Source of the DNA: Lobosporangium transversale
Lineage: Eukaryota; Mortierellomycota; Mortierellomycetes; Mortierellales; Mortierellaceae
Assembly: GCF_002105155.1 (NCBI RefSeq)
Contig: NW_019029001.1
Coordinates: forward strand, 124,001-188,000
Direction: 5' to 3'
DNA length: 64,000 nt
Of the stretch, positions 2,446 to 57,650 are shown piece after piece; position 1 is the first letter of the stretch, and each line of letters opens with the position of its first letter. The notes beneath the pieces were generated by a model. The model made no database searches and was not told the origin of the DNA. It saw only the letters and a list, made by a program, of their open reading frames with translations. The position numbers were made by a program, and so were the translations under genes.

Positions 2446-3311
2446 ATGAAATTCATTCTATTTCGCCATGGCCATTCCCTGGCTAATCAGGAATCTAGGA
2501 TCGTATCATCACTCGAGAACGGTGCTCGAACCTCCGGCGGACCATTAGGAACAGGCTTTGGTTTGTCAGATAGAGGCAAACAAGAGGTCGCATCGGTAAT
2601 GAAAGATATTCCTGTTCAGAATTAGGAAAAGCATGCCTTTTAATCAATCATATGCTAATAGTCTATGACTCAATTTACATTTAGTCAGCAAGATCATTGT
2701 CAAACTTCATTCTTGAATCCACCAAGGCAGGTCAGAAAGCTAAGATCAAGATCTTGACCTCACCATTTCAAAGAACAATCCAAACTGCCAGTATTATCCT
2801 TCGAGAGCTTCAGACGACCTTTAAAAAAAGTAAGGAAGCCGGATCACCAGAAACCACCCGCATGATCGTGATGGAAAATAAAGATGAACCGGAATTATGT
2901 ATGGATTTGAGAGAGCGATTCTTTGGAGAGTTTGAGATGAAAACACCCTCAGACGAATTGTACGCGAGGGTCTGGCGCGAGGATGCCTTTAATCCTTTTC
3001 ATGAGCGATATGGAGTAGAGAGTGTCGTGAGTGTGACGAAACGAATGACGGATGTTATTCGAGACCACGAATGCAAAGAAATGAAAAATCGCGAGGTATC
3101 GTCACCATTGTCGAGTCTTCCGGATGAACAAGAGCAAGAGCACGGGGAGACATGGATCGTTTTGGTGAGCCATGGCGATTCCCTTCAGATCCTACAGGCA
3201 GCCATGCATGGCCTGAGCGGTGATCGTCATCGACAATTGGATCATTTGGATACCGCCTGTTGGAGAGACGTACAGTGGTGCGAAGCGTTAGCAGAGGCAC
3301 ATCATCGCTAA
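2446..3311 (+). CDS. Histidine phosphatase superfamily protein (phosphoglycerate mutase-like)
   Basis: Two exons, 2446-2595 and 2685-3311, joined in phase 0, give 258 residues. The N-terminus MKFILFRHGHS carries the RHG signature with the phospho-accepting His8. SPFQRTIQTA supplies the second conserved Arg, an acidic LRERFFGEFE follows, and VSHGDSLQI supplies the second catalytic His. This is the canonical order of the superfamily. Family members remove phosphate from sugars, nucleotides or small acids; the substrate here cannot be read from sequence. The 89-nt intron has a plausible branch site (tgctaat, about 2653). No signal peptide is visible, so a cytosolic enzyme is likely. Confidence 0.86.
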
Positions 3312-38327: not shown

Positions 38328-41300
38328 ATGGCATCATTCTCTTGGGACCAGATTCGCAATGAGGTGCGCTCTTTTCGGGCATTAGTTCAACCCACAGTTG
38401 TTACCATCTGCGACGTCGTTTTTGATCCCACTCGAGACCGCATCTACTTCCTCGCCAGCGACCTCTCGCGCTCATTCAAATCTCCCATGCTCTTCCGTGT
38501 TGACCTTCCGCCATCTTATTCAACCTTGTCTTCATATTCCCCCGAAGTGGGCAAGACTGAAGACGACATGGAATCACATATTGATACAGATACAGATACA
38601 TATATATATACAGATACAGAGACAGAGACAGATACCGCAGCAGATTCAGATACCGACATTAACACAAATAATAGCACTATTCAGGTCTCAATCTTAACAG
38701 GTCCAGAAGCTGCACAGCATTCACACTCATCCTATCGCCACATAAGCCAATCCCATGATTGTCGTTGCCATGATCATCAGCAGTGTCAATGTCAGTCTCA
38801 GCCCCAGTCTCAGTCTCGGCCCAGGCACACTCGATACCGACGCAGACGACGACATGGACACAATGATCATGACATGGATCTTATACCCTTCAATCCAGAC
38901 TCATATCAAGGCTTTGCCTCCCTAGCACCACCGATCCACATCTTTATTAGTCCTAGGACAGAGCCCATCCAAGCAGCAATCGGGTCCTCCTCCACCTCTA
39001 CTTCATGTGCTAGTTCTGTTGGCGCTAATGGTTCAGCTAACCAGAGATACCCCCACAATGCCTATACACCTGATGTTTCACTCGAAGCTTCTACAGCCAC
39101 GGACCAGATCCTTGCAGCTGCACCTGTGTTGGACTGGACCCCTGTCTTGACTGAGGAATGGCTTAAATATGCCAGTACATGTTGGGGACATTCTCCATGC
39201 GATCGATTATCTTCCTTTCAATTTGAGCCTCAAGTAAATCGTCTCATGTTTTCATTCGGTACAGTCATATACACTGGCGATGTCCAAGAGGTATTTATGG
39301 ATCCTTTGGCGCACTGTCCTTTATATAATCATTCCTAAACTGAATGGCACCATTTCCTGCTACTAACTATGGTTACTTCCTTTTTTTTTTTATGGCACAC
39401 TCTACACTAGGATGGTAAAGTCAACCCGCAGCCTGCTCAATCAGATCCACATCCCTCAACAGACAGCCCGAGTCTCAACCGAACATATTCCAACATGGTT
39501 CACAATGCTCTAACAGCAGGACTCAACCTTGTCTCTGTCTCTGGGCCTTTGACATCGCCACGGGCATCACTTTCAGGATATGGGTCTACACCTACATCTA
39601 CATCTACATCAGCGTCTGCATCTCCATCTCATCTGGATAAGAGTGGTGCTGGATCAACAGGAACCAGAGCAGATCCGAGGCTCGGCGGATCAGCCATGGA
39701 TCTAATCGCATTTACGCGTGATCAGGATATTTGGGTCTCTACGATGACAGGAGTCGAGACACAGCTGACGTTTTGCTCTCGTAACACAAAGAAATCCGAC
39801 ATCAGTTGCGGCATTGCCGAGTTTGTGATGCAAGAGGAATTCCATCGCTCCACAAACTATTATTGGGCTCCGCCTCCACCGCAGTCAAAATCACGTCGGA
39901 GGCCGCAGACACAAATACATATGCAGACAAACACACAGGCGGATATGCAACCATGTATGCATATGCATTCAGATCACCCATCATCTATATCGCAGGATAT
40001 AGACGCTCTTCCTGTGTCAATAGCCAACAACGCGTCTTGTAGAACAACTGAGAAAATCTTGTATCTGCAAGTGTCCGAAGCCATGGTGGATTTGGTTGTG
40101 ATTCCAAGGCAAGGAATGCATCCATCCTGTGAGGAATATAGATACCCGCATGCGGGCACTCCAAATGCGGTCTCGGATCTCCAGATTGTAGAATTTGTCC
40201 CGAAACGGTTTGAGAAGGTAACCGTGCTGGACGGCTTGCGAAATAGCCTGATGACGGCTTTATAGGGCTCCTTATCCTTCTTGGCCATACTAATTAATAG
40301 TCTATATTTTTGTTGCTTCGCATGCTACATTAACCTGTAGGACGAAGTACCAGAGCCCCTTCATAAACGTCTATGGGGTAGGGCATCACTGTACAAACTA
40401 TTCCCTTGGCTCGAGTACATTGTACGCTTTGGATGGATGCCAGATGGAGGAAGGTATAGTGGGACAAAGGCAAAAAAAAAAAAAAAACTGGAAAAAAGTG
40501 TAGATATTGATATAGCACTGCTATTTGTTTCTACTTTTGATCAGTGTATGGGTACAAATCTTAGATCGCCGACAGCAGGTTACAGCAATTATTGTGATTC
40601 CATTAGAATGCTTTATGTCTGTGGCGGAAAAGTCGGATTCATCAGAAGAAATCGAAGACAAACTTGCCAGTCGTATCCGCGTTATACACGAAGAGCAAAG
40701 CAAATACTGGATCAATGTAAGTTATAGAAAGCCTTTCCGTGCACAAAATATAAATAAAAGTTAGATTTTTATATTGGCTTCTGCCCTTTGGTATTATCGA
40801 CTAATAATATCAATTAATAGGTGACAGACATCATACATATTCTTCCATCAGAGCATCATATTACCGACAATCACTCTATGGGAGCCCAAAGTGAGGAAGG
40901 CGCTTTAATTCAATTTATCATCCCATCGGAACGTACGGGATATCGTCACTTGTATCTAGTAACCCACTCCTTCAAATTTGGATCCACGGTCAGACCTATT
41001 ACTGCAGGGCAGTTCCAAGTTGTAGATAAGCAGATCACTGTGGACCCATCTCGCCAGCTCGTTTACTTTACTGCTAAACGTGATTCTGTCTTGGAAACTC
41101 ATCTCTATGTGGCAAGCTACGCCCGCAGCGCTCGACCTGAGAATATGAAGCGATTAACAGAACTTGGATACAGCCATCAGGCCATTGTAGATGTGGAGAA
41201 AGATCGGTTCTTGACCATGTATTCAAGCATGGATCAAAGCCCGGCATGTGCAGTGATACATCTACGGTGGAATGATTGTCGTCTTACAGAACCGGCTTCA

Positions 41301-42880
41301 CCTTCGACCTCAATTGGAAAAAATTATGGAAACAACCATACAGAAAAGATATGCTGGTGCGATTGTGGATGTCACTTCCCAAAAATTTCATCTCATGCAT
41401 ATCTTATTAAGCAAGGGATTATTAATCAAAATGCTGAAAGGATCCGACGCGCCCCTGTTGTGGCTTCTTCATGTCGCCAACAGCAAGGCCACACGCGGTC
41501 TTTTTCAGAGTCATTTGTAAAACCATTTACCTCATCGCCTTCTCCACGAATGGATTCTGCGTTGGATGGATTCAAAGCAGGACCCATGAGCTCGGTTTCA
41601 GGATTCCTAGCTAATCATTCACTGTCAAGCAGTCTGCCAAAAATGTTTACTCAACATCACCATCAGCGTCGCAATCATTGTGACTCAAGTATGGTTGTAA
41701 GCTCTACTGATGATAGCCATAATACCGAAGGATCCAGTTCAACAGGGACGCGCTTACCCAATTTTAAGTTTATATCAGCGATTCGGTCCTCCCCTTCTTT
41801 TTCTAAAGCGCCGTCGCTCTCTCCTTTTTCCTCCTCTCGGTCTTCTCCATCTTCATCTGCTGACTCATCATCTGGTAGTAGTCTTATTAATGCGACTCAT
41901 CACCCTGTGGGGGAATTTTTCTCATTCATGAGTTCTGATAATATAAAACTACATGGCTGCCTGTACAGGCCTGCGAACTATATCGAAGGTCAGAGATATC
42001 CGACGTTGGTTTGTATCTACGGCGGGCCAAGGTCACAGATGGTGTTGAACGAATACAAACTTCCTAGATTCTTACGTGTGTTTTTAGCGGCTAGTCTAGG
42101 CCATGCAGTAGTAATGATCGATGGGCGAGGTAGTAATGATCGTGGACTGGAGTTTGAAGGGAGATTACGTCATCAAATGGGTTTGGTCGAGATTCGAGAT
42201 CAGGTTGAGGGCCTGGAGTTTCTGGCGAGACCTGAAAATGGGGGTATAGTCGATATGAACCGCGTTGCCATTTCTGGGTGGAGCTACGGTAAGTACTGCA
42301 ACAAATACAGCCAAAAGCGCGTATCTTTTATTGGATAGAGTAGATTAATTGGTTTCTTAATTCCTTCATCTCGTGTTTGTAACAAAAAAAAGGCGGCTAT
42401 CTGTCTCTGATGGCTCTGGTGCAATATCCCCACATCTTTAAGCTGTCTATTGCAGGGGCACCTGTCACACAATGGGAACTCTACAACTCGGCTTATACGG
42501 AACGCTACATGGGGCTTGTTCATGAAAACAAGGATGGCTATGCTAAAAGCAATATACTCAACTGGGTCGACAAGTTCCCAGACAGGTAAAGAATGATCGA
42601 AACACGCTTTTTTGTTAATATTGTTTGCTGATATTAATATTGGCATGCCTTTCTATTTTTTCTGGACCTTTGTAGTGAAAATCGTCTATTAATTGCGCAC
42701 GGACTAATTGATGAGAATGTCCACGTCAAGAACACAGAGACCTTGGTGGAGGCTCTCGTGCGAAATAATAAGCCACACCAGACCCAGTTCTACCCAACTG
42801 AGCGTCATGGTCTTCGAGATTCTCGCACTAACGAGCAATTCGAGACATTATTGCTTTACTGGCTTAAAAATTACCTATGA
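38328..42880 (+). CDS. DPP8/9-like prolyl peptidase (S9 family)
   Basis: Seven exons (38328-39290, 39411-40217, 40341-40453, 40545-40716, 40821-42288, 42393-42585, 42676-42880) with exact phase sum, 1,306 residues. The N-terminal propeller includes DLIAFTRDQDIWVSTM and a GIAEFVMQEEFHRSTNYYW segment diagnostic of DPP IV-type enzymes (EE substrate clamp). The C-terminal hydrolase has YPTLVCIYGGP, VVMIDGRGSNDRGLEFEGRL, GWSYGGYLS with Ser1173, LIDENVH with Asp1251 and ERHGLRD with His1283. The family cleaves X-Pro dipeptides from peptide N-termini. Absence of a signal or anchor points to a cytosolic DPP8/9-type enzyme. It is about 400 residues longer than animal DPP8/9 because of Ser/Thr, Asp/Thr and His/Gln-rich insertions in the propeller, for example the DTDTDT tract near 38580-38660. 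Confidence 0.92.
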
Positions 42881-43379: not shown

Positions 43380-43381
43380 CT
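43365..43381 (-). other. Stem-loop at the 3' end of the Fanzor-like relic
   Basis: AGGCGTT-CCT-AACGCCT is a perfect 7-bp palindrome with a 3-nt loop, overlapping the last bases of the relic reading frame. TnpB and Fanzor guide RNAs typically overlap or follow the 3' end of the nuclease gene, so this could be a remnant of such an RNA or of the element end. A chance hairpin is the alternative. Confidence 0.35.
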
Positions 43382-46300
43382 ATGAACTTGTTGACTTGAA
43401 CTTGTTGGGCCTCGTTTGTGTAGTTATATGGGACAGGCACACACGCGCATTGTTCTCGGATCCGACCATGTCACGATCACAATATATCTGACAGCTTCGA
43501 CAATACTTGGACCTGTTGACATGAATTTCTAGGAATGCGTTGCGGTTGGGGCGGGGACATTTAGCACCAGTGTAATACTCATGAACGCCAACAACTTCGT
43601 ATCCAAGGGGCCTCGCCTGTTTGAGGAAAAAGTAAATAAATGAATATAAATAGGATAGAGAATAGAGTGACCAAAGTCTCTTTTTTTTTTCTGATACTTA
43701 CTCTCGTTATGAATCGCTTTTCGAACTCGGAACGCTTCGAGGATAATGCAGTTTGTGTGTTGAAAGAACCAAGATCGATTACGAAAACTGCAGGGTTGGA
43801 GGAATCCATCTTCCTCCCGTTGTTCCCTCCAGCAAGTTGAGGGATTGAATCAATCCCATAGTCGTATGCAGTTTTCTGAGCTTTTCTCAAGTCCCAAGTC
43901 TTTCGGAGATGCCACTAGCGGAGATAAAAAGATCGGAGTCTTTTCCCCTCTCCATCCCTGTACAGGTACTCCAAGTACGAATTGATCCCTGAAAGCGTCA
44001 TGGGCGGCAGCACTGACTCGATCAGATCGATACCGAATTGGGCCTTTCACTCTTCAAGCAAGTGACGGTACTTGATATAAGGCCCGTACAAGAACGATCG
44101 ACGGATGGTGGTGAAGCGAGGGACTTGGGGCTCCCCTGGACTCAGCGCTGCTGCAACCATTGTCTTTACCTCTCCAGGATCCATCCCAACGACAAGCGGT
44201 GTCGGACCGGAACTTGAGGAGACATTCTTCAGCATCTTGGAGCCTCGTTTCCAGTTGATGCTAGAGACACGCGCTCTTTCCGTATCCGAAGTGTCTGATC
44301 CATCGTCCGAAGAGAGGGTCCAGAGCCAGGAGCCCTTGGAAGCACGGGAGTACGTGGTGCTCCACCTCGCGCACGTTTCACAGTCGCAGGCGGGGCGGCG
44401 CTGAGCTTTCGCTTAGCACAAGTACGTAAGTGGGCCCTTGATGATGAGCTTTCAGCTTCCTGCTCCTCAAGTTGCAAAAGAGCGCTTTCCATGTCATCGT
44501 CATTTTCATCATCGGGGGGCCTGGATGAAGACGCTCGAGGCTTCGGGCGTTCCTTAGTGGTGTCATATGCTAACAGGTTGAGCACGAGTTCATTGGTGCA
44601 GATGGTCCCCTTCAACTTGAACCGATCCGATAATGTATCCATAGTCCCACCTTGCCATGATATCCGTTTATGCGCTGACGGGTTCGAACAGGGCAGAGCA
44701 AGCTACTGATCGACAATCCCTTACGCCTCAGAACCAGCTGGGCAGCCTCATCAATGCTCGCATCATTTGCGAATTCTAATGCGTGGGGGCCTTACGACGC
44801 GTGTCCTCGTGACCGTGGAAGATGTGGAACAAATCCTCCTCAGATAGATAGACGTATGTAGGCTTGTGTTTACTTTTTGGGAAGTCTGCAACATTCTGTT
44901 TGACTATTTTTCTCAAAGAATTAGCCAATCGGGTTTCTGTTTCCTGGCCGCTGCCCAGTCTCGGAGAACTGCTTGAGTTACATCCAAATGAAAAAAAAAA
45001 AAAAAAAAAAAAAACCTAATTGTTGTTTCGCGATGCAGGAGTGCCGCCTCATGTTTAGGCTTGGACATAAAAGTGCGACCCACCACTGATCCCATGAAAT
45101 GCACTCGCATAGCATGCTTAACGGAGATCATTGTCAATATCAGTACAGTAGTGCGGACATGAGCCGACGTATGCCCTGGCCGCTCGGCGAACCCGAGGAA
45201 ATTTGTTTTAGCCTTGTAATGTACGAAGGCTCGCAGGGTATGGGGCTTTTGAGGAGGCGGCCGATGACCAGGAACGGGATTTGAACGCGTTACTATGGTT
45301 GTCTGTGAAGCACGCAAAGCTCTTTCATATCCAGACATCCTCCCAAGTCGCCCTTTTTGGATTAGCGTACTCAATGAGAAGTAAAGTCCTCGCTCTCGAG
45401 GATGTCTTCAAGGTCCGTGATATCTTGCTGAGAGAGGATGTGTTGCACCTGAGCCGGCGACAGGGTATTGAGGAGGATTGTCGGTGAGCCGTACCCGTGG
45501 TTGGATTGCTGCTCGAGAGCCCTTGAGATATGGAAGATATCTTGCTGTGAGAGTCCTGGTTGCGTCCGAGCCACCAAAGGCGTATTGGAAGGGATCACCG
45601 GTGGAGTAAATGTGCAGCTGTATTTCCGCCCGAGGATCCTGGCGATATCGAGGGCAATAACCTCATAACTTATGATCCTTGCCGAATGAAGATAGAACAC
45701 ATGAGACTGCAGGGCATTAGACAGCTTCCTCGCTGCAGGGTTGGACATGTTTCTACACCGCAACGTGTTTGCCTTGATACTTCTTACAGCCAAGGCCTTG
45801 GTGAAGTATCTCTTACGCAAGCTATGGTCCCTTTTTGTGGTAGCAATAAGGCCTCTCCTCTCTTCTGGTTCTGATGTACTACTTCTCCTTGGTAGTATCT
45901 TCTTCTTGTAGAGCCGACGCTATGTAGCCTTCCTAGACGGATCTCGCGGTGACGCTGGACGAGAACTGTGTATGTCAGCATTCAGGGTCATTGTTTGGGG
46001 ATGCAGCTTTGCTTCTTTACTCTTGAAGTGTGGCCGGAACTGATTGGGGCTTGATCCTTCGCGGATATATGCTGTGAGCGGCCTATCAGTCATTCAACAT
46101 AAAATAAAAACAAGATAAATAATTAGTTGTTTGTCAGCTGCAAATTATGTCAACCACTGATTAGTTGTGTGCTAGTATTGATAGCAGCAGCAAGAAGGAG
46201 GTACGGTGAACCAACTTTTGAACTACAATCTCAGTGACATGAAGAGCTTTCAGTTGATTGAAAGTGGTGAGCCCGGACATGAACATCTGGTTGGTAGGGG

Positions 46301-47208
46301 ATGGGTCTTACATAGATGAGGTGTGATATCTAAAAAGACATTACCAGCTAGAGCAAAGTACTCAGAAGCGATAGCCGTGATTGGCCTTTGGTTCATCGTG
46401 GTGATATAGGAGGCTAGTAACGCACGAGCCGATTGAGCTTGAGGCAATTTTCGGATGATGTTTAGATTCCTCGATAGGCCATACTGTGGGATATTATTTG
46501 TATAGTCGTTTTTAGACACCACTCCAAAATCCTCAAGGTGATCAGGGGACGGTAGCCGAAGAGCTTGCATTACATCGATCTTCCTCAACAGAACAAACCC
46601 TTCTTGCCCTGTTAACCTCCTAACTACGTAGGAGATACTTGGATAGATTAGGAAATCACTATCTGACGACACAGCAAACCTTTCAAGCACATTCAAGCCT
46701 CTATTAACCCGGGATTGGCCACGACATAAAGCAGCAATGTATGCATCAGATTTTCCTTGACAGCATACAGTGAACATGGTCACGAGACCATCTGCCAATC
46801 TGTTTATTGTCTCAGTGGTGACGACGAAGGCTCCTCAGGCAAGTTTCAATTCGGTGGATAATAGGTTTGGAAGTCCATCTTCCCTGGGCTGACCGACCGC
46901 GCATCATAGCGAGGTTTTCCTGCAGCCTGTATTTGGCTATTTTGGCGCTCATTATATGCTTTTAGCTTTTCTTCCGTGCGCGCCCGTCGAGATGTAACGT
47001 AGAACAACGTGGGTCAAACGACGATGATATGATGTGCGCCAGCCTTATACCCGCTTGATATGGATTGAGGCTGGAGGTTGAGGCTAAGCTGGCCAAAATA
47101 AACTGGTAATAAGTGCCGAAGATATCGATGTCAAAATGCACATCAGATTGTGTTAAAGGCTTGAAGCCTGCGTTTCTTCAAATACTGGTAGAGGCCGTGC
47201 ACACCCAT
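43380..47208 (-). pseudogene. Decayed FEN1/XPG-like nuclease plus Fanzor (TnpB-like) RuvC gene
   Basis: Read right to left, one co-oriented set of coding fragments spans 3.8 kb. (1) 47208-46250: a FEN1/XPG-like PIN domain beginning MGVHGLYQYLKKRRL, with LASTSSLNPYQAG, FVVTTETI, SSDSDFLIYPSISYVVRRL (acidic metal-ligand block) and VVSKNDYTNNIPQYGL; several frameshifts and stops interrupt it. (2) About 46080-44913: a long middle region of unknown fold, open at 45820-45371 and 45374-45010. (3) 44640-44330: FKLKGTICTNELVLNLLAYD, similar to the segment before the RuvC core in Fanzors, then an acidic Ser-rich linker. (4) 44317-43702: RuvC-I with VVGMDPGEV (catalytic Asp), SFLYGPYIKYRHLLEE, WHLRKTWDLRKAQKTAYDYG and VIDLGSFNTQTALSS. 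(5) After an 85-nt GT-AG intron (43701-43617), 43616-43380: VVGVHEYYTGAKCP, YCRSCQIYCDRDMVGSENNA (zinc ribbon, RuvC-III Asp) and the stop. Within parts 4 and 5 the only breaks are TGA at 44047-44049 and TAG at 43915-43917. The first zinc-ribbon Cys pair has lost one Cys. Whether parts 1 and 3-5 were once one protein is inference. Confidence 0.75.
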
Positions 47209-48885: not shown

Positions 48886-49582
48886 TGGTTATCGTAATAA
48901 ATGGTGATGCATGATGTATAATAAAAAAATAAAAGAGAGAAATATAAGTGAGCATGGTTTTATACTTTTAATGGATATTATCAAGCCAAAGATCAAGAAT
49001 ATACTTTCCTCATATTTCAATTATTCAATCGTTATCTTAATGGTCTTGGTTGCTTAATTCCCTCAAGCGTCAAGCGCACTTTTTTTTTTTATTTTTATTT
49101 TTTATTGTTTTTCCTTTGAATAAGGAATGAGGAATGAAGGTATGAAGAATGGAGCATGAAGCAGGGTGTTGATCTGATCAGATCGCTTTTTAGAGCGCTG
49201 CGCGCGTGTAACTGAAGATTTTTTTTTTACTTTTCAGTTAAAAGACATGTGCCTGAATTAGTTTCTTAAGGCTCGACCTATCACGTTCACGACAGTTGCT
49301 AATATCAACTGTAGGTCTGCCTAATATGTTCAACTTATCAGGAAAGATGGGCTTCTATGCGATCTTCCCGCTATATAGAACGATTGCGTGTCTCAAAAAT
49401 ATCCAAGAAATAGCCAGTGATTAATACCAAAGATGTTTGGTTTCAAGGCCAAAATTAAGGCTTAAGCTCTCTTACGTTTCGCGACGCTGTGATCGCCTTT
49501 GCTGAGCCATTCTATGGCGGAGATTCTTTCCATCAAGTAGACGCTTCTTGAAGTTATCGAGCTCAGTGTTTGGTGGCAACAC
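48886..49582. other. Non-coding spacer between relic fragments
   Basis: About 0.7 kb of A/T-rich sequence with a T-run (49080-49112) and no recognisable coding content. Confidence 0.5.
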
Positions 49583-50391
49583 TTAAGTCGACATTTGATG
49601 GCCGGAAGCTAAGGCGTGGCGAGCTGCTTTGAAACAGCCTTCTCCATAGGCTACACTCTCCTCCAACTTCTCGCTAGCCTCCCTAAGGTAACTGCGAAGC
49701 ATTATATTGTAGCTCTTGTTCCACGCAATGTTTCGAACTAAATCTGGGGTTATTAATCGGACCCGGTATCTTAAGGTTTTTCGAGTAATCATTGTCTGAG
49801 ATCACACAGAACAATACCAGATGTTCATGGGCTGGCGGGCTTAATGCCTGGATAACGTTGTCCACGTCGTAAGCCCCAAGCTTCCGTTGAGGGCACTGAG
49901 GAGGCCACACTGGGGTGTAGACTCATTCATACGCGAAAAAATTGAAGTCTTGGGATATCACAATCTACCATCCTCCACACCATGGCATCTTATGCATGGG
50001 TCTGTTTCATATACGCACAGGCGGGCATCGTAGATAGAGGCGAGGCCTGTTGCCTGTTAGCCCCTGTCATGGTCGCTCAGAATGTGGGCTTCTCGAAGGC
50101 TTTCTTTTTGGATGTGCCCCGTGAGTTGAAGCTTAGTTCAAACCCCGTTCCGTGGATTTTTCTCGAAGATGTTCATAGCGTTCTCCAAAGCGCCCATATT
50201 TCTACCTTCTGACTTGTCGTTCTGTCCTTGCGTGTCCTTTTTCAGTACAAGGACCGCCATCAATATTTATGGTTAGATAGTCTGTTTTGAAAAGGTCCCT
50301 CAGCTTGAGAGCCAGAGGTTTGCCTACATCAATAACGGATTTGTGTTCATCTTTGCATGGACTATTCTACTGTGAATGTCGTAATTGAATG
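49583..50391 (-). pseudogene. Second FEN1/XPG-like PIN nuclease relic, ending at the transposon
   Basis: Reading leftward from the transposon boundary, fragments in changing frames follow the FEN1-like order. LALKLRDLFKTDYLTINIDG (about 50310) is the first acidic beta-strand block. NAMNIFEKNPRNG follows, then VISQDFNFFAYE interrupted by a stop (acidic metal-ligand block), KLGAYDVDNVIQAL, VISDNDYSKNL (about 49815), and a helical end with LREASEKLEESVAYGEGC. The block order parallels the 46-47 kb relic (SSDSDFLIYPS, VVSKNDYTNN), but the sequences differ enough to be a different subfamily. Stops and frameshifts are numerous, so it is not functional. The N-terminal 30-40 residues expected for the family are missing exactly at the transposon edge. 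No Fanzor RuvC part follows on its left side. Confidence 0.6.
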
Positions 50392-50393
50392 TA
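50392..50393. other. Left TA target-site duplication
   Basis: TA immediately outside the left terminal repeat (which starts TAGCCCG at 50394). The matching TA is at 57377-57378. TA duplication is the hallmark of IS630/Tc1-mariner insertion. Confidence 0.8.
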
Positions 50394-51745
50394 TAGCCCG
50401 TTTCATTTGGTCACGATACCTTATATTTTTTAAATTGATTGAATAGACTCAAGCGAAAATTGAATTGTATTGAATAGCAACTCTAAATCCGATGTCGTTC
50501 GCTACTTGCAAGCTTGGCTCGCTGTCCTCTATTTGCACGCCGAGCGACGGAAGAGGTCAGTGGCTTTGACGTTGAATAACTGTTATGCGTCACTATGTTT
50601 TGCTTCCTTACCTTCACTCTAGCTCTCACGCAACACAATCAAACATGATGATCGTCAAATTCACAGAGTTCCATCAAGTAAGTAATAGACTATCTTTTTT
50701 TTATCATTTACCTGCGCTTCCTAATTATTTGTGAGTAATCTCTGGTTTCTTACGATGAATAGACGCGGAATCTTTCGATCCAATGAGAACATCGCAGCTT
50801 CCTTCTCCCTTTTCTTTTTTTTTGACCTTGGAGGTCGTTACAAGGAGACGCCAGATGTTCTGCTGATTCGAACTGGCCACTACCCATAGTGGGGAAACTT
50901 TTTGAGCAGGTCTTTGACCTTGTGCAAAAGTTTCAGCCCTCCGGTTTTAAAAAGATTCTGTCAAGCATCTGAGTCTTTTCTTTTTTTTATATTTTCTTTT
51001 TCTTTTTCTATGGCTGCTGAGGGATATACGAAGGGACGCCGGATGCTCTGCTGATTCGAACTGGCCACTACCCATAGTGGGGAAACTTTTTGAGCAGGTC
51101 TTTGACCTTGTGCAAAAGTTTCAGCCCTCCGGTTTTAAAAAGATTCTGTCAAGCATCTGAGTCTTTTCTTTTTTTTATATTTTCTTTTTCTTTTTCTATG
51201 GCTGCTGAGGGATATACGAAGAGACGCCAGACATCTCACTGATTCGTTAACTGCCCACTATTTATAGTGATGGAAACTCTTGGTCTTTGACCCTGGTTTC
51301 AGCAACCCAGTCGTATCGAATCTCAAGGGTTCTGGCTCTATTTCTTTTTTTTTTCTATTTTTTTTTTCCCCCTCCAAGACATGGTTCCGCCTTGGTTCTT
51401 GCTATCTCCTGCCAGCTCGCCAGGTCTGACCACAAGTTGCCGTCTGTTCTCCGTCGCGGAAAATGGATAATATGATTATTTTTTTGCATGGTATTACAAA
51501 CGCAAGGCCTTTATTCAAACCTACAACATGCAACTCGACATCGAGACCAATTTTAACCATCATATATACTCTGAAGTAATATTAGGCCAACCAAGATTTT
51601 ACCCATTCGCACACTCGGATTCTTAGCAGCTGTCGGGCCGCGGTTTTTGTCGAGGCGTGGATGAGGATATCGTGGGCAAGACTCTCAACAATGTTTATAT
51701 TTCGTTGGAATAACAAAAAGCATCAAGCATTAAAGTCGAATAACA
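50394..51745 (+). repeat. Left terminal inverted repeat (1,352 bp)
   Basis: It is the reverse complement of 56025-57376. It contains three 188-bp tandem units (50847-51034, 51035-51222, and a diverged copy from 51223). The inner border falls inside a 30-bp imperfect direct repeat (51708-51737 and 51738-51767), of which the right side keeps only one copy. Confidence 0.93.
50847..51290 (+). repeat. 188-bp subterminal tandem repeats in the left TIR
   Basis: GACGCC starts at 50847, 51035 and 51223, exactly 188 bp apart. Units 1 and 2 are nearly identical; unit 3 diverges after about 60 bp. Each unit carries a short palindrome: CCACTA-CCCA-TAGTGG in units 1 and 2, and CACTA-TTTA-TAGTG in unit 3. 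The arms are kept while the loop differs. Similar subterminal arrays in other DNA transposons bind transposase. Confidence 0.85.
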
Positions 51746-52131
51746 AAAAGCACCAATCATTATACTCGAATTGCGCAACAAGAATTATCAGGCAATAAAG
51801 CTGCATATTTTCGATAAACCCTTAATATTTATTTATATATATCATGTATTATGCAAAACTTGACTGCAATTATGCCAGCTAATGGCACACATGTCTGCGT
51901 GATCATGGTAAGAAAGGCTATATCTTCTGTATGCCATCGATAGCGTTTTCTTCACAAAGCTGCTGAAGTATTCAATTTCTTGCTGTTGTAGATCTCGATC
52001 ATTAGACTAGGTCATACACTGAAGGCCTAACATTAGTGACGGCTATGGCGGGGTTCAATAAAGGGCTCCCTCTTGACAACAAATAATAAACAACTTTTTA
52101 TCTTCCTTCACATTCCAGCAAAATTTTTACA

Positions 52132-53955
52132 ATGTCTTCAGCACAATTTTCTTTAATCCCCAAAGAACTTAGTGCGGAACAGGCAAGCCGGAGAAGCGAG
52201 TCTTTTATTTATGAAGAGTCCAACCAATCCATGTTTTCTCAAGAACATGAGAATGATAATCCCTTCCTCATCAGCATGGATGAAGGTGGTCTTCATGCAC
52301 CGCCACGACTTAGTAAGACAACCGTAGCGGAGGAGGAATACCGCCTAATCGCACATATCTACGCAAAGCTCAGCAATGCGCCGCCAGAGTTTCAAAAATG
52401 GATGAGACAATCGTTTGGCATGAAAGAGTGTGTGCAGATGGCTAAGCTTACCGGGGTAAATGCACATTCCTGTCTAGCAGCTATCAACTACTCAAGGACA
52501 GGGGTATTGAAGTTGCCCAACAAGGGTGTGGGACGTGGCCGTAAAGCACAAGCAAAAGATAAAGTGCTCCAGGGACATATCACGGATATCATCAGGAGAA
52601 CTAATCTGGGAGGTATCCCGAATACACTTGGACGAGTGGTGAATGAGCTCAGAAATGAGCATGGTATCAGGACGTCAAGGTCAACAGTTCATCGATACCT
52701 ACATGCAAGTAACTTTTACTGGGGAAAGGGGGTTCGAAGGAACTTTATGCACGATGCACCTCACATTGTGCAATACCGACTGAAATACCTCACAGAGCGT
52801 TTCAAGAACCTGGTGGAGCTTGACGATGGTTTAATCCCTATGATGCCAGAGGTATTTCTTGATGAGTCCTATTGTCACCTGGACCATTCCTCAAAAAATC
52901 GATGGGTAGAACGGGACGGAGGCATTGTGTGTGAATCATCTCGGCAACCACTTCTCGTCATGTTCGCTGCATTTGTCATCTATTACGACCGTGACGAACA
53001 GAAGGTGGTGGGGAAGTTTGTTGAGAACAGTGTTCACATCTGGGCGGCGAACAGCAAGGCATCTCTTCAGGGAAACGCCGATCATATGCAGCCCAATAGT
53101 CAGATTCTTGCAAATGATCATGACTATCATGGTCATTTTAACCACGAGGTGTTCGAAGAGCTGTTTACGACGGTTTGCCAAAGTCTGGTAAAGATGAATC
53201 TCGGTCCTTGTAAAATACACATGGATGGTGCCAGGTACCATTTCCATTGCCCTGATAGGAAGCCAACGGCCGCCAATAAGAAATCGGAGATAATGGAATG
53301 GCTTATATCTCATCAATTTGGAATTCCACCCGGTTCTAACGGTGATCGAACGCCAAGCAAGTCAGAACTACTTGCTTATATAAGGACCCTTGATTACCAG
53401 CCACGGTACACGGTCTGGGACATCGCATTAGAGAATGGGGGCCACTGGATTATTAGGACACCTCCTTATCATTGCGAACTCCAGCCCATTGAATTAATCT
53501 GGGGCGTTATAAAAAACAGCGTAGCTTACATGATATCCGGATCGATGGCTGCCGATCAACTTATCCAGATGCTGAAGGAACTCTTCCGAAATGTTCAAGT
53601 TAAAACTTTCGTTTCTGCCTGGAAAAAAACCCTTAGTTTTGCCTACAGATACATGCAGGAAATTCGTGGCCAGACATTCGAGACGGCCGAGGTGCAGGAA
53701 GAGTTGGAACAAATTTTTCATTCGATTGATTTTTCCGAGGCCACATTCAACAGGCTTTTTGGGATTGGTGCTGCCAGAGGCCGATACAATGTCTTAATTG
53801 AGCCCATGGAAGATGGTGATATTGGTGATGAAGTTGATGAAGTTGAAGAAGACGTTGATCTTATCCCGACATCTCGATCCTTGGCTCCTGATGAATTGGA
53901 GGAAGACGATAACTCAATGCCGGCTTCACCTTCAGCCCGTTTTTACCGCCACTAA
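52132..53955 (+). CDS. DDE transposase of the transposon (IS630/Tc1-mariner-like)
   Basis: Intronless and uninterrupted, 607 residues from the ATG at 52132. An acidic and Ser-rich N-terminus (1-65) is followed by helix-turn-helix-type DNA-binding sequence (about 70-200) ending STVHRYLHASNFYWGKG, typical of the superfamily. The catalytic core has EVFLDESYCHLDH (Asp244), KIHMDGARYH (Asp365) and RTPPYHCELQPIELIWGVIK (Glu454). All three acidic residues are present, so the enzyme is predicted active. The 88 residues between the second Asp and the Glu are far more than the 34-39 of classical Tc1/mariner; the extra sequence includes KKSEIMEWLISHQFGIPP and a segment after it. The C-terminus is acidic (EVDEVEEDVD). 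It would excise and reinsert the element through the TIR ends at TA sites. Confidence 0.92.
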   Translation: MSSAQFSLIPKELSAEQASRRSESFIYEESNQSMFSQEHENDNPFLISMDEGGLHAPPRLSKTTVAEEEYRLIAHIYAKLSNAPPEFQKWMRQSFGMKECVQMAKLTGVNAHSCLAAINYSRTGVLKLPNKGVGRGRKAQAKDKVLQGHITDIIRRTNLGGIPNTLGRVVNELRNEHGIRTSRSTVHRYLHASNFYWGKGVRRNFMHDAPHIVQYRLKYLTERFKNLVELDDGLIPMMPEVFLDESYCHLDHSSKNRWVERDGGIVCESSRQPLLVMFAAFVIYYDRDEQKVVGKFVENSVHIWAANSKASLQGNADHMQPNSQILANDHDYHGHFNHEVFEELFTTVCQSLVKMNLGPCKIHMDGARYHFHCPDRKPTAANKKSEIMEWLISHQFGIPPGSNGDRTPSKSELLAYIRTLDYQPRYTVWDIALENGGHWIIRTPPYHCELQPIELIWGVIKNSVAYMISGSMAADQLIQMLKELFRNVQVKTFVSAWKKTLSFAYRYMQEIRGQTFETAEVQEELEQIFHSIDFSEATFNRLFGIGAARGRYNVLIEPMEDGDIGDEVDEVEEDVDLIPTSRSLAPDELEEDDNSMPASPSARFYRH

Positions 53956-54282
53956 GTTAATAAAAAGCATGTGCTGGTGGTCCACCTCAGTCTTAAAGCA
54001 TTGATTTCCTACTCTGTTGATTCCATCCATGTTGCTTATTCATTTAGCACAGTCGTTACAAATGTTCCTGATTTCATCTGGTAAGCTTGGTCCACTTATT
54101 CCCAGAGGCGGGGCATTGTCTCATGTTGCACAAAGGAGTTAGGAGTTATATTTTTGTCGCTTTCACAGATAAAAAGAGGTCTCTGAACTTCTTCGCAATA
54201 CTAATAAACCTCTTCACAAACTCTTCACAAAGCTTCACACAAAACTTCTTCACAAACCTCATAAATACCTCACCAAACAAAA
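53956..54282. other. Spacer between the two transposon genes
   Basis: The 327 bp contain the 3' end of the transposase transcript and the presumed promoter of the second gene (AT-rich TATATTTTT near 54148 and a CTTCACAAA-type repeated leader at about 54188-54265). No ORF is visible. Confidence 0.5.
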
Positions 54283-55998
54283 ATGGCCACCAGCACAATT
54301 TTTCAGAAGCCTCAAAAGGTCAAGGTTGACTTGGATACTATGATATCTCAACTTCCAATTGGCAAATGGCCAAGCCCAAAAGATCTTACCCTTTTCCATT
54401 TCGTCGAATGGGCCGTCAAGGAATACGGCGTGGATCGTGAAGCTAGCAGTTTCAGCAAAATTATCAGTGAGATCAGGAGGGCGGCGCGACCAAGAAGAGA
54501 TGACTCAGTCCTGATCATCATTTACAAGGAGAACTTACGTGCCTTACTAAAAGGCATAAAAAAAACAAACATCAACAATTACCTGAAAGTATGTGTCGAA
54601 TAATTTAACGTTGAACCAATGTTTACTTCCATTATGATCCAATATTAATAAAAATAATAACAACTAGCCCGACGAGTCTGACAAGACTAACAAGTCTGAC
54701 GCGGATGAGCCTATCAACCACCTCACTGGGGAAGGCGAGAGGAGTAGTCAGGTCACCGATAGGTTGGTCTTAAACGGAGGTTTCGATGTATCTTCTCCCC
54801 TCATGGAGGTACGAGAAGAACTCATTAAACTTGAGGAAGAGCGCCAGGGAACGCTCCTCTCTCCACATGATATTCTGTGAGTGCTTTTTACTACCATTTA
54901 TTTCATTGCTTGAGAACACACCGAAGGCCGTGACGCTGATACAGTTCTTACTGTGTTTTCTAGCTCCATAAACTTCATTTTCACAAAAGAGTTTATGGAA
55001 AAATATTTTTCAAAGGCGGGGCGTCGTAAACTCAAGCGCTTTTTCAAGGTTACAGAGACCAGTGTAGCCTTGAGTGAGCAGGATTTGGATTTTTCCAAAT
55101 TCTGCGTGGAGAAAGCAAAGGCGTCGAACTCTGCTTCCGAGTATCGCGCCTTTCTTGAAAAGGGTCAGGAAGGAGCAAGTGAAATGCTCAAGAGCATTTT
55201 CACCAAACTTGGCGAGGACGAGATGTTTTGGGAGTCGCCTGGCAAAATAAAAAAAAACGAGGCGACGTACAGCGCGCTCTACGTCAGGCCCTACATCTGC
55301 GCCATCGCATCGACTTTGGGATACTGGTGAGTAGTAGATCTGTCAGTTCTTTGTTCTTCATTCATTTCTGCAGGATATTCACATGTTATTTCTTCACTCT
55401 TGGTATAACACGTCTCCGCTTTCAGCGATAGCAGAATCCCAACGGAGAAATACTATACGGAGCGCTTTAGACCAGATAACCTGGTTATGGTCGACGGCCT
55501 GCCTCTACTCGTAGTGGAGGTGAAGCCCCCAGGAACCTCTAAAAAGCTCCTTGATAGAGATTTCAGGAAGTTACTTTCTGAAATGAAGCTGGCACTAGAT
55601 CTCTTGTTCGCCAAGGGTGTAAAAGACCCAACGGTCCTGGGTCTGCTTGTCCAAGGTATGTTACACTCTTGTATATTTTTACGATCCATGAAACCTAAAC
55701 GGAGACAGTGGTGCTAATTCACGCTTTAGATGGTCAAATGGAAATCTTCGTGATGACCCTAGATTACGAAGCCGTTTATATCCCCAGATTATTGGGCAAG
55801 GTCAAAGTGCCCAAGGGCAGGAAGAGCCTTAGCGTGGTTGCGGAAGCAGTGCCAATTCTGGAGACTACAAAGACAGCTTACTTGAAAGCCAAGGAAGCTG
55901 TCGGGGAGCGTGTGAGGGTTACAGACGAGGTGAAACATACATGGGTGAGGCCATCTTTTTACCTCCAGATCAATAGAAAGCGCAAGAGATCAGAATAA
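54283..55998 (+). CDS. Transposon-borne PD-(D/E)XK nuclease-like protein
   Basis: Five exons (54283-54588, 54668-54876, 54964-55326, 55426-55655, 55730-55998) with exact phase sum give 458 residues. The 74-99 nt introns all have GT-AG ends, and coding continues smoothly across each. Residues 1-100 are basic and unclassified, and 103-170 are polar. Exon 3 is helical and Lys-rich. Residues 305-345 read ERFRPDNLVMVDGLPLLVVE followed by VKPPG: an Asp (310) on one strand, then a hydrophobic strand ending E-x-K (Glu324, Lys326). This is the pattern of the PD-(D/E)XK restriction-endonuclease-like fold, with a following helix DRDFRKLLSEMKLALDLL. The C-terminus is basic (RKRKRSE, a likely nuclear signal). 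No disruption is seen, so it is probably expressed. The nuclease assignment comes from motif and predicted strand order only. A role beside the transposase (end processing or accessory) is inference. Confidence 0.75.
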
Positions 55999-56024
55999 AT
56001 TGCTTCATTTAGGATTGTTTATTG

Positions 56025-57376
56025 TGTTATTCGACTTTAATGCTTGATGCTTTTTGTTATTCCAACGAAATATAAACATTGTTGAGAGTCTTGCCCACGA
56101 TATCCTCATCCACGCCTCGACAAAAACCGCGGCCCGACAGCTGCTAAGAATCCGAGTGTGCGAATGGGTAAAATCTTGGTTGGCCTAATATTACTTCAGA
56201 GTATATATGATGGTTAAAATTGGTCTCGATGTCGAGTTGCATGTTGTAGGTTTGAATAAAGGCCTTGCGTTTGTAATACCATGCAAAAAAATAATCATAT
56301 TATCCATTTTCCGCGACGGAGAACAGACGGCAACTTGTGGTCAGACCTGGCGAGCTGGCAGGAGATAGCAAGAACCAAGGCGGAACCATGTCTTGGAGGG
56401 GGAAAAAAAAAATAGAAAAAAAAAAGAAATAGAGCCAGAACCCTTGAGATTCGATACGACTGGGTTGCTGAAACCAGGGTCAAAGACCAAGAGTTTCCAT
56501 CACTATAAATAGTGGGCAGTTAACGAATCAGTGAGATGTCTGGCGTCTCTTCGTATATCCCTCAGCAGCCATAGAAAAAGAAAAAGAAAATATAAAAAAA
56601 AGAAAAGACTCAGATGCTTGACAGAATCTTTTTAAAACCGGAGGGCTGAAACTTTTGCACAAGGTCAAAGACCTGCTCAAAAAGTTTCCCCACTATGGGT
56701 AGTGGCCAGTTCGAATCAGCAGAGCATCCGGCGTCCCTTCGTATATCCCTCAGCAGCCATAGAAAAAGAAAAAGAAAATATAAAAAAAAGAAAAGACTCA
56801 GATGCTTGACAGAATCTTTTTAAAACCGGAGGGCTGAAACTTTTGCACAAGGTCAAAGACCTGCTCAAAAAGTTTCCCCACTATGGGTAGTGGCCAGTTC
56901 GAATCAGCAGAACATCTGGCGTCTCCTTGTAACGACCTCCAAGGTCAAAAAAAAAGAAAAGGGAGAAGGAAGCTGCGATGTTCTCATTGGATCGAAAGAT
57001 TCCGCGTCTATTCATCGTAAGAAACCAGAGATTACTCACAAATAATTAGGAAGCGCAGGTAAATGATAAAAAAAAGATAGTCTATTACTTACTTGATGGA
57101 ACTCTGTGAATTTGACGATCATCATGTTTGATTGTGTTGCGTGAGAGCTAGAGTGAAGGTAAGGAAGCAAAACATAGTGACGCATAACAGTTATTCAACG
57201 TCAAAGCCACTGACCTCTTCCGTCGCTCGGCGTGCAAATAGAGGACAGCGAGCCAAGCTTGCAAGTAGCGAACGACATCGGATTTAGAGTTGCTATTCAA
57301 TACAATTCAATTTTCGCTTGAGTCTATTCAATCAATTTAAAAAATATAAGGTATCGTGACCAAATGAAACGGGCTA
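56025..57376 (-). repeat. Right terminal inverted repeat (1,352 bp)
   Basis: Reverse complement of 50394-51745, including the three 188-bp units and the terminal TAGCCCG. A 62-residue ORF appears on the minus strand here and identically on the plus strand of the left copy; it is a by-product of the duplication. Confidence 0.93.
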
Positions 57377-57378
57377 TA
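57377..57378. other. Right TA target-site duplication
   Basis: TA directly after the last base of the right terminal repeat, matching 50392-50393. Confidence 0.8.
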
Positions 57379-57392
57379 CCGAGGGGACATAC

Positions 57393-57650
57393 ATGGGCAG
57401 GATGATCAAGATTTGCCGGCAAAGAAGTGTCCACGCCAGTTTTCGAGGGCAAAGCCCCACGAGCCGCTATCAGCTTGAAGAAGGACTGACTAATACCCAA
57501 GCAAAAAGAAAAGGAAAACGCGAAAATAGGATTGCTGTCATTGCATTGATGGAGACTTTGAGCTCTGAGATAAATACACTAAAATGTCTAAAGTATAAAT
57601 ATCGGCTAGACATTAAAATTTTTTACGAGGTTGCTAGTCTATGTCCTTGT
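57393..57650 (+). pseudogene. Possible FEN1/XPG-like fragment in opposite orientation
   Basis: One + strand frame starting next to the transposon reads RQRSVHASFRGQSPTSRYQL, then a Lys/Arg-rich helix (QAKRKGKRENRIAVIALMET) and LKYKYRLDIKIFYEVASL before the frame becomes T-rich and meaningless. The order (strand plus G-x-S-P, basic helix, helix before the metal-ligand block) resembles the middle of the FEN1-like family, but no acidic ligand block follows. If real, it lies head-to-head with the relic left of the transposon, so the two are not halves of one interrupted gene. Confidence 0.28.

Follow-up and report, generated by a model that had tools for sequence, protein, structure and literature searches.

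Fanzors are RNA-guided nucleases of eukaryotes, related to those of CRISPR systems. Fanzor1 genes have been described from Mariner elements without a transposase, such as PUl-4 and PGv-1 (Bao and Jurka 2013; PMC3627910), the latter of which has a separate GIY-YIG nuclease gene beside its Fanzor1 (PMC3627910). The proteins are mostly 600-700 residues long, a notable exception being the RuvC insertion domain of PpFz1 (PMC11423790), and bear as hallmarks a DPG motif and a glutamate placed six residues ahead of the zinc cysteines (PMC10711439). SpuFz1, the Fanzor of Spizellomyces punctatus, has 5'-CATA-3' as its target-adjacent motif (TAM), and the function of Fanzors for their host transposons is treated as an open question (PMC10432273). 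The present analysis concerns a stretch of 64,000 nucleotides (C44:124001-188000, hereafter the window) of the 42.7 Mb assembly of Lobosporangium transversale, a soil fungus of the Mortierellomycota. On our reading, the window contains two dead copies of a transposon-borne family, whose gene would, after splicing, encode one protein of some 1,200 residues, composed of a FEN1/XPG-type nuclease, a basic linker and a Fanzor1, with a role in element retention; the probability of this reading as a whole is put at roughly 0.55.

Order and splicing of the two nuclease parts

The genome contains 65 FEN1-like matches (tblastn, one window piece), many of them long open frames nearly identical to one another, and 69 matches to the zinc ribbon PF07282 (TNB). 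A zinc-ribbon match lies within 8 kb of 39 of the 65, and in 36 cases, the window copy included, it is found downstream on the same strand at a distance of 1.0-3.6 kb, with 0.14 expected by chance. An initial annotation of the window had named as its own test that the two parts might always prove to be separate genes at unlinked loci; given the 36 linked matches, this did not occur. Copies within a transposon family do not count as independent cases, and more weight is therefore given to the fact that four lineages share the FEN1-Fanzor order: lineage A (L067-L069), lineage B (L070), lineage C (L071) and lineage D (the window relic).

In A copies, GT-AG introns divide four predicted exons whose frames are joined by splicing, and which encode the FEN1-like part (341 residues), a linker, RuvC-I and -II, and the zinc ribbon with RuvC-III, respectively. 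One copy, on C51, has all four exons open and yields a single spliced reading of 1,209 residues with both active sites and all catalytic motifs. Because this copy is readable as one spliced protein, the parts are best understood as exons of one gene, in agreement with the initial proposal of a common transcription unit. The same annotation had held the architecture to be visible only as a relic, which has to be given up: a readable intact form exists elsewhere in the L. transversale genome, and the relic is a member of a transposon-borne family. Splicing of the B copy gives an open frame of 618 codons with RRTGVPSFYIAEGSHRNQFRPIF at the junction; the counterpart of this junction within the Mortierella alpina gene model P0013 is RPSFYVARGSVRNQFRPIF. 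Indeed, both parts occur within one gene model in 6 of 101 collected proteins (P0002, P0009, P0013, P0041, P0086 and P0098), one of which, P0013, is from M. alpina; such models are present in L. transversale as well. P0013 begins only about one third of the way into the FEN1-like part and does not continue past RuvC-I, and is therefore a partial witness; the protein search behind it scored the best 8000 candidates by shared words, many of which were perhaps drawn by the lysine-rich linker. The suggestion of a family in Mortierella genomes thus stands in that the composite recurs and a M. alpina model joins its parts, with the restriction that this model is partial.

Several observations weigh against the proposed reading. 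The C-terminal tail of the C51 copy is disturbed after RuvC-III, unlike in other copies; each of the nine A copies examined for breaks has at least one; and only 5 of 14 A copies (L009-L011, L013-L023) are open across the exon 1-2 junction, in a test in which L011, with an altered start, was not judgeable and L012 failed to match the junction strings. No correctly placed TNB match accompanies 29 of the 65 FEN1-like matches, and dN/dS between close B copies spans 0.2 to 1.5. The 29 include fragments, multiple matches of single loci and seven long B copies; the four of these that were compared (L025, L026, L034 and L036) all align to L070 past base 3030, i.e. into exon 3. A further copy, on C59, has a stop at residue 430. 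A copies are mostly 92-99% identical internally, and summed pairs among nine A loci show 126 synonymous and 206 nonsynonymous changes, which may be a weak sign of constraint.

The region is rich in nested elements, and two unrelated genes could have become adjacent through nested insertions. Such an origin is very improbable, as introns join the frames, the C51 copy is open across four exons, and the spacing of the parts repeats from copy to copy; adjacency of unrelated genes was rejected on the B junction, with its 618 codons, and on the open C51 copy. Fusion of the FEN1-like and Fanzor parts in one gene is considered nearly certain.

The relic at 47208-43398

The first of the two window copies is a decayed FEN1/XPG-Fanzor gene on the minus strand (47208-43398), collinear with residues 1-1162 of the intact C51 copy. 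Its domains follow in the order FEN1/XPG-type nuclease, linker, Fanzor RuvC core and zinc ribbon, all on the minus strand, and comparison with the C51 protein (tblastn) resolves it into six collinear blocks:

47208-47164, minus strand: residues 1-15
47159-46827, minus strand: residues 16-142
46789-45578, minus strand: residues 158-522
44624-44508, minus strand: residues 725-762
44259-43699, minus strand: residues 850-1093
43628-43407, minus strand: residues 1089-1162

These blocks bear out the initial account of fragments on one strand running from a FEN1-like start at 47208 to the zinc ribbon. The approximately 1.5 kb of coding sequence that it had left unclassified is present, and can now be assigned to the exon-2 linker plus the exon-3 start of the relatives. 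Nine stop codons fall inside the blocks, some perhaps in the intron between exons 1 and 2, and frame shifts lie between blocks. In descending order, the block scores are 102, 87, 82, 35, 33 and 25 bits, and two linked sets reach E values of 4.6e-45 and 1.8e-25. Among 200 shuffles of the relic stretch in units of two bases the top score was 26.2 bits, so that the 25-bit block (residues 1-15), which lies below it, counts only through its position in the series. A chance origin of the relic matches was rejected on this control. The following features are distinguished within the relic:

47161-47208, minus strand: start of the FEN1/XPG-like domain, residues 1-16 (MGVHGLYQYLKKRRL; tblastn with P0003 and the C51 protein)
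46827-47162, minus strand: FEN1-like residues 16-142 with motifs FDIDIFGTYY and LHLDG, frame changes and one stop (tblastn, alignment)
46316-46798, minus strand: FEN1-like residues 153-310, XPG-I type, with SSDSDFLIY and SKNDYTNNIP (tblastn)
45578-46093, minus strand: exon-2-like linker, beginning near PLTAYIREGSSPNQFRPHF (tblastn)
44508-44898, minus strand: start of the exon-3-like part, ahead of RuvC (tblastn)
43678-44265, minus strand: Fanzor RuvC-I to RuvC-II region (tblastn)
44173-44181, minus strand: RuvC-I DPG motif, MDPGE (position from the sequence; hallmark as in PMC10711439)
43398-43640, minus strand: zinc ribbon and RuvC-III, one zinc-ligand cysteine gone (Pfam TNB, E 1.5e-6; tblastn)
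43578-43580, minus strand: alternative catalytic glutamate, six residues ahead of the first zinc cysteine (position from the sequence)
43470-43472, minus strand: RuvC-III aspartate, CDRD (position from the sequence and translation)

The sequence PLTAYIREGSSPNQFRPHF corresponds to the exon junction of copy B and of M. alpina P0013. The zinc ribbon of the relic passes the Pfam cut-off for PF07282 (Cas12f1-like_TNB) with E 1.5e-6; its FEN1-like pieces alone give zero Pfam matches, and their recognition comes through relatives. Near the relic, Sailor-type repeats were absent at up to 3 mismatches, and its surroundings contain 62 inverted repeats, the 25 longest of which involve homopolymer tracts. 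A gene for a dipeptidyl-peptidase IV-like protein (S9) adjoins the relic at 40821-42880 on the plus strand.

The Fanzor part

A Fanzor/TnpB-type RuvC core with zinc ribbon, as first annotated, is confirmed by the TNB match of the relic and by a profile of the Fanzor part (A2), whose best match in the Protein Data Bank (PDB) is SpuFz1 (8gkh, E 1.7e-4); NCBIfam guided_TnpB is matched by 3 of 5 rows of this part. The RuvC-I motif is DPG in A, B and the window relic and DLG in lineage C. Lineages A, B and C and the window relic were each represented by a single sequence, and all four have the alternative glutamate six residues ahead of the first zinc cysteine. The strict published pattern E-x6-CxxC-x(12,18)-CxxC-x(4,8)-D is satisfied by C alone; A and B, with C-x4-C, satisfy a relaxed zinc pattern, and the window relic, with one cysteine lost, satisfies neither.

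Relatives of the Fanzor part are numerous, the profile search having yielded at least 88 proteins among the best 7997 candidates scored. Where named, they belong to Lobosporangium, Dissophora, Gamsiella, Modicella, Mortierella, Entomortierella, Haplosporangium and Benniella, all of which we take to be Mortierellomycota, plus one Umbelopsis. Eight matches have E values of 1e-3 to 1e-2, seven of them with PF26935 and one from Lobosporangium. Guided activity of intact copies appears probable. It counts against this that a guide RNA was not found, the 3' end of one A copy folding unremarkably (z -1.3, 20 of 200 shuffles as good).

The FEN1-like part

The N-terminal part had been called FEN1/XPG-like, and this is upheld by a 12-row profile (A1): its 19 PDB matches at E 0.1 or below are exclusively FEN1 or XPG, with 1a76 the best at E 8.8e-7. 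Profile-profile comparison with the FEN1-, XPG- and EXO1-like proteins of the same genome gives a probability of 82% (E 1.1e-5), and one C-lineage copy (C13:672316), whose TNB partner is present, passes Pfam XPG_I with 25.9 bits at a cut-off of 24.9. Less favourable to the assignment are a narrower profile (A4), which finds FEN1 at no better than E 0.006 and, once matches as weak as E 1 are admitted, EXO1 and ribosomal uS4 entries as well, and the A and B sequences, which at 13.8 and 15.9 bits remain under the XPG_I cut-off of 24.9.

P0001 is the FEN1-like product of a copy outside the window and is 100% identical to a protein of L. transversale. Its acidic residues stand at D36, D85, E171, D173, D190, D192 and D243, positions which we take to be the metal ligands of human FEN1, with a glutamate as the presumed FEN1 counterpart of D173. 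They are kept in most of the rows that cover them, several rows covering only some positions; P0003 departs with N at 85 and V at 171, P0013 has N at 192, and the window relic has K at 171. The genome also has separate FEN1-like and XPG-like genes, named from motifs. Eleven FEN1-like protein relatives were obtained, from Lobosporangium, Entomortierella and Mortierella where named; scans for a viral or prokaryotic relative, less sensitive than a protein search, gave 63 and 46 pattern stretches, respectively, with 0 confirmed.

Some PIN-domain proteins are RNases. Fanzor, moreover, works with a guide RNA (PMC10432273), and the FEN1-like part might accordingly be an RNase whose substrate is either the guide or the transcript of the element. 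Its closest relatives of solved structure, however, cut DNA flaps, FEN1 and XPG accounting for each of the 19 PDB matches down to E 0.1, and an RNA substrate is rated improbable. Processing of DNA ends or flaps would be the job of this part with about even odds.

Terminal repeats and the relation to Sailor

Family A copies end in imperfect inverted repeats, TATAGCCCGTTCCATT on the left and TATAGTCCGTCCCATT on the right. The repeat pattern, allowing one mismatch and thereby also catching the Sailor repeat, has 152 matches in the genome versus 3 for the reversed control. A repeat is found on each side of at least 10 of 15 long A copies, with spans of 5,615-6,674 bases, and the A left end resembles the end of a Sailor element in the window over approximately 44 bases inside the element. 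This Sailor lies in the second relic of the window, which is B-like:

50392-57378, plus strand: Sailor (DD82E, IS630/Tc1/mariner) in the second relic, TATA at both ends, terminal inverted repeats (TIRs) of about 1354 bases
52090-53955, within the window Sailor: transposase open reading frame (DDE)
49265-50393, minus strand: second relic, B-like, FEN1-like part from residue 42 and linker start (blastn, 75% over 1153 bases to L070; tblastn)
57333-57488, minus strand: N-terminal piece of the second relic, residues 5-56 (tblastn)

Between its TATAs (50396-57374) the window Sailor measures 6,979 bases; the published L. transversale Sailor has 6,979 bp, a transposase of 607 residues, TIRs of 1,362 bp and the TATA duplications usual for Sailor (PMC8533490). 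The published class is DD82E; by our count, the second D is separated from the E by 88 residues. Insertion of this Sailor split the second FEN1-Fanzor relic into the pieces at 49265-50393 and 57333-57488. Read across the insertion, the second relic has a frame that agrees more closely with a duplication of TA than with one of TATA (50392-50395 / 57375-57378), the relic being too decayed to decide. Extra frames inside the window Sailor at 54265-55998 (plus strand) include PLLVVEVKPPG and a weak HSDR_N match (E 0.0019), perhaps a PD-(D/E)XK nuclease cargo.

Five open Sailor transposase copies, each within a Sailor repeat pair, are 100% identical, which suggests recent activity. In 20 A-type stretches checked (four with one estimated end), none of 73 transposase matches fell inside, and an own DD82E transposase was not found there; family A would thus be non-autonomous. 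With Sailor-type repeats and no transposase, it most likely depends for its movement on the Sailor transposase acting in trans, and mobilisation of the Sailor type is regarded as highly probable. For family B, the 5' end lies near a different repeat, and no matching 3' repeat was found. In family A (L009, L010, L012-L023), the 5' non-coding sequence ahead of the FEN1-like start contains approximately 550 bases homologous, in antisense, to B-type Fanzor exon 3.

The left-flank motif

Flanks were compared as the 12 bases outside each end, duplicates removed, among the matches listed, where 26 rows with the C-variant repeat supply the 24 distinct flanks of left ends, and the 80 Sailor ends are 86 T-variant rows minus one duplicate and five others (four without TATA; none ending in AG or G). 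AG precedes TATA at 17 of 24 A-type left ends, 1 of 34 right ends and 10 of 80 Sailor ends (Fisher P 2.6e-8 for left versus right ends, 9.2e-8 for left versus Sailor ends; with the five left-out Sailor rows restored, 10/85 and P 4e-8). Counting only the base next to TATA, it is G at 22/24, 6/34 and 24/80 of these ends, respectively, and position -4 is A in 18/24 left and 9/34 right ends (P 4e-4). As a baseline, AG precedes 35 of the 634 TATA sites in the window.

Since the TAM of SpuFz1 is CATA (PMC10432273), an asymmetric left-flank motif ending in ATA is what a Fanzor element could show, and AG-TATA is put forward as a candidate Fanzor TAM, at slightly less than even odds. The competing explanation, that a transposase reads the 5' end asymmetrically or that terminal bases of the element are seen, is given the same weight. 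Against a TAM, and for a bias of the transposase, stands the failure of the motif to track the cargo: AG occurs in 9 of 11 left ends with a long FEN1-like copy and in 8 of 13 others, so that it is present with and without the nuclease gene, and a C45 A-type element with other cargo in its first 4 kb also has it. G at -1 (22/24) could, moreover, be element sequence. On the other hand, neither Sailor ends nor the right ends of the same elements have the bias, and positions -2 and -4, each conserved in 18/24 left ends (75%) as against 92-99% internal identity, are not simply element sequence. That elements without the nuclease have the motif would fit a nuclease acting in trans as well as a transposase with a preference specific to this end. 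In the element L082 (C45:132700-136700), which has A-type repeats, the 4 kb read contain a P-loop-like cargo (VTGTPGIGKS) and no nuclease gene.

A possible role in element retention

In the retention model of TnpB-like nucleases, the nuclease is guided to the empty site and cuts it, which sets off repair with the element-bearing copy as template. For Fanzor, retention by empty-site cutting has been discussed as a possibility (PMC10432273). The fusion, the conserved active-site residues, the terminal repeats and the flank motif come from the sequence; to them we add, by inference, a guide RNA, guided cutting, mobilisation by Sailor and a job for the FEN1-like part. The Sailor transposase would mobilise a family A element (5.6-6.7 kb) in trans. 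Once the element has been excised, the resealed empty donor site would probably be cut by the Fanzor part with a guide RNA read from the right end of the element, the cut being placed beside the left-flank TAM, candidate AG-TATA. The break would then be repaired from a copy still carrying the element, which would thereby be retained, and the FEN1-like part would most likely act on the same break by trimming 5' flaps or resecting 5' ends, favouring templated repair. It is tempting to speculate that the protein is a natural single-chain nuclease which joins an RNA-guided double-strand cut to FEN1/EXO1-like processing of 5' ends or flaps, and by which a Sailor-type element homes back to the sites that it has vacated, next to an AG-TATA TAM; in this full form the proposal is a tentative one, somewhat under even odds.

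The FEN1-like part might instead act on the transposition intermediate, at flaps or gaps left at excised Sailor-type ends, with the Fanzor as a separate retention module and the fusion serving joint expression. The Sailor-type ends of family A and its want of a transposase would agree with this, as would the Entomortierella lignicola model P0006, which joins a DDE_1 transposase tail (E 4.2e-6) to a FEN1-like start and hints at a DNA-transposon link, perhaps with another transposon host. The fusion is nevertheless kept in A, B and M. alpina, as expected if the parts cooperate, and we consider action on the intermediate unlikely. As regards the retention model, the readable copy, the defined transposon frame and the candidate TAM make it testable.

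Comparison with known systems

No report of a FEN1-Fanzor fusion was found among the papers listed from the open-licence literature on Fanzors, flap nucleases and Sailor, which leaves room for such a report elsewhere, and the main texts examined of Fanzor papers contain no mention of FEN1 or XPG. If true, the proposed architecture would be a natural coupling of guided cutting to end processing in one chain; in editing work, guided cutting coupled with FEN1 and EXO1 is being attempted (PMC12386499).

With SpuFz1 (Spizellomyces punctatus, 8gkh), the gene described here shares the RuvC-I DPG, the alternative glutamate, the zinc ribbon, the RuvC-III RD and carriage by a transposon, but it adds an N-terminal FEN1/XPG-type nuclease and reaches about 1,200 residues in total. 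With the FEN1/XPG (Rad2) nucleases it has in common the MGI..L start, the acidic active-site positions and a core of the XPG-I type; unlike them, the FEN1-like part here is diverged, multicopy and fused to an RNA-guided nuclease. The L. transversale Sailor DD82E and family A have the same terminal-repeat start and TATA ends, whereas Sailor carries a DDE transposase and no Fanzor. Closest in layout are PUl-4 and PGv-1, in which a Fanzor likewise lies between Mariner-type TIRs in an element without a transposase; in the family described here, by contrast, the second nuclease is FEN1-like and part of the same polypeptide.

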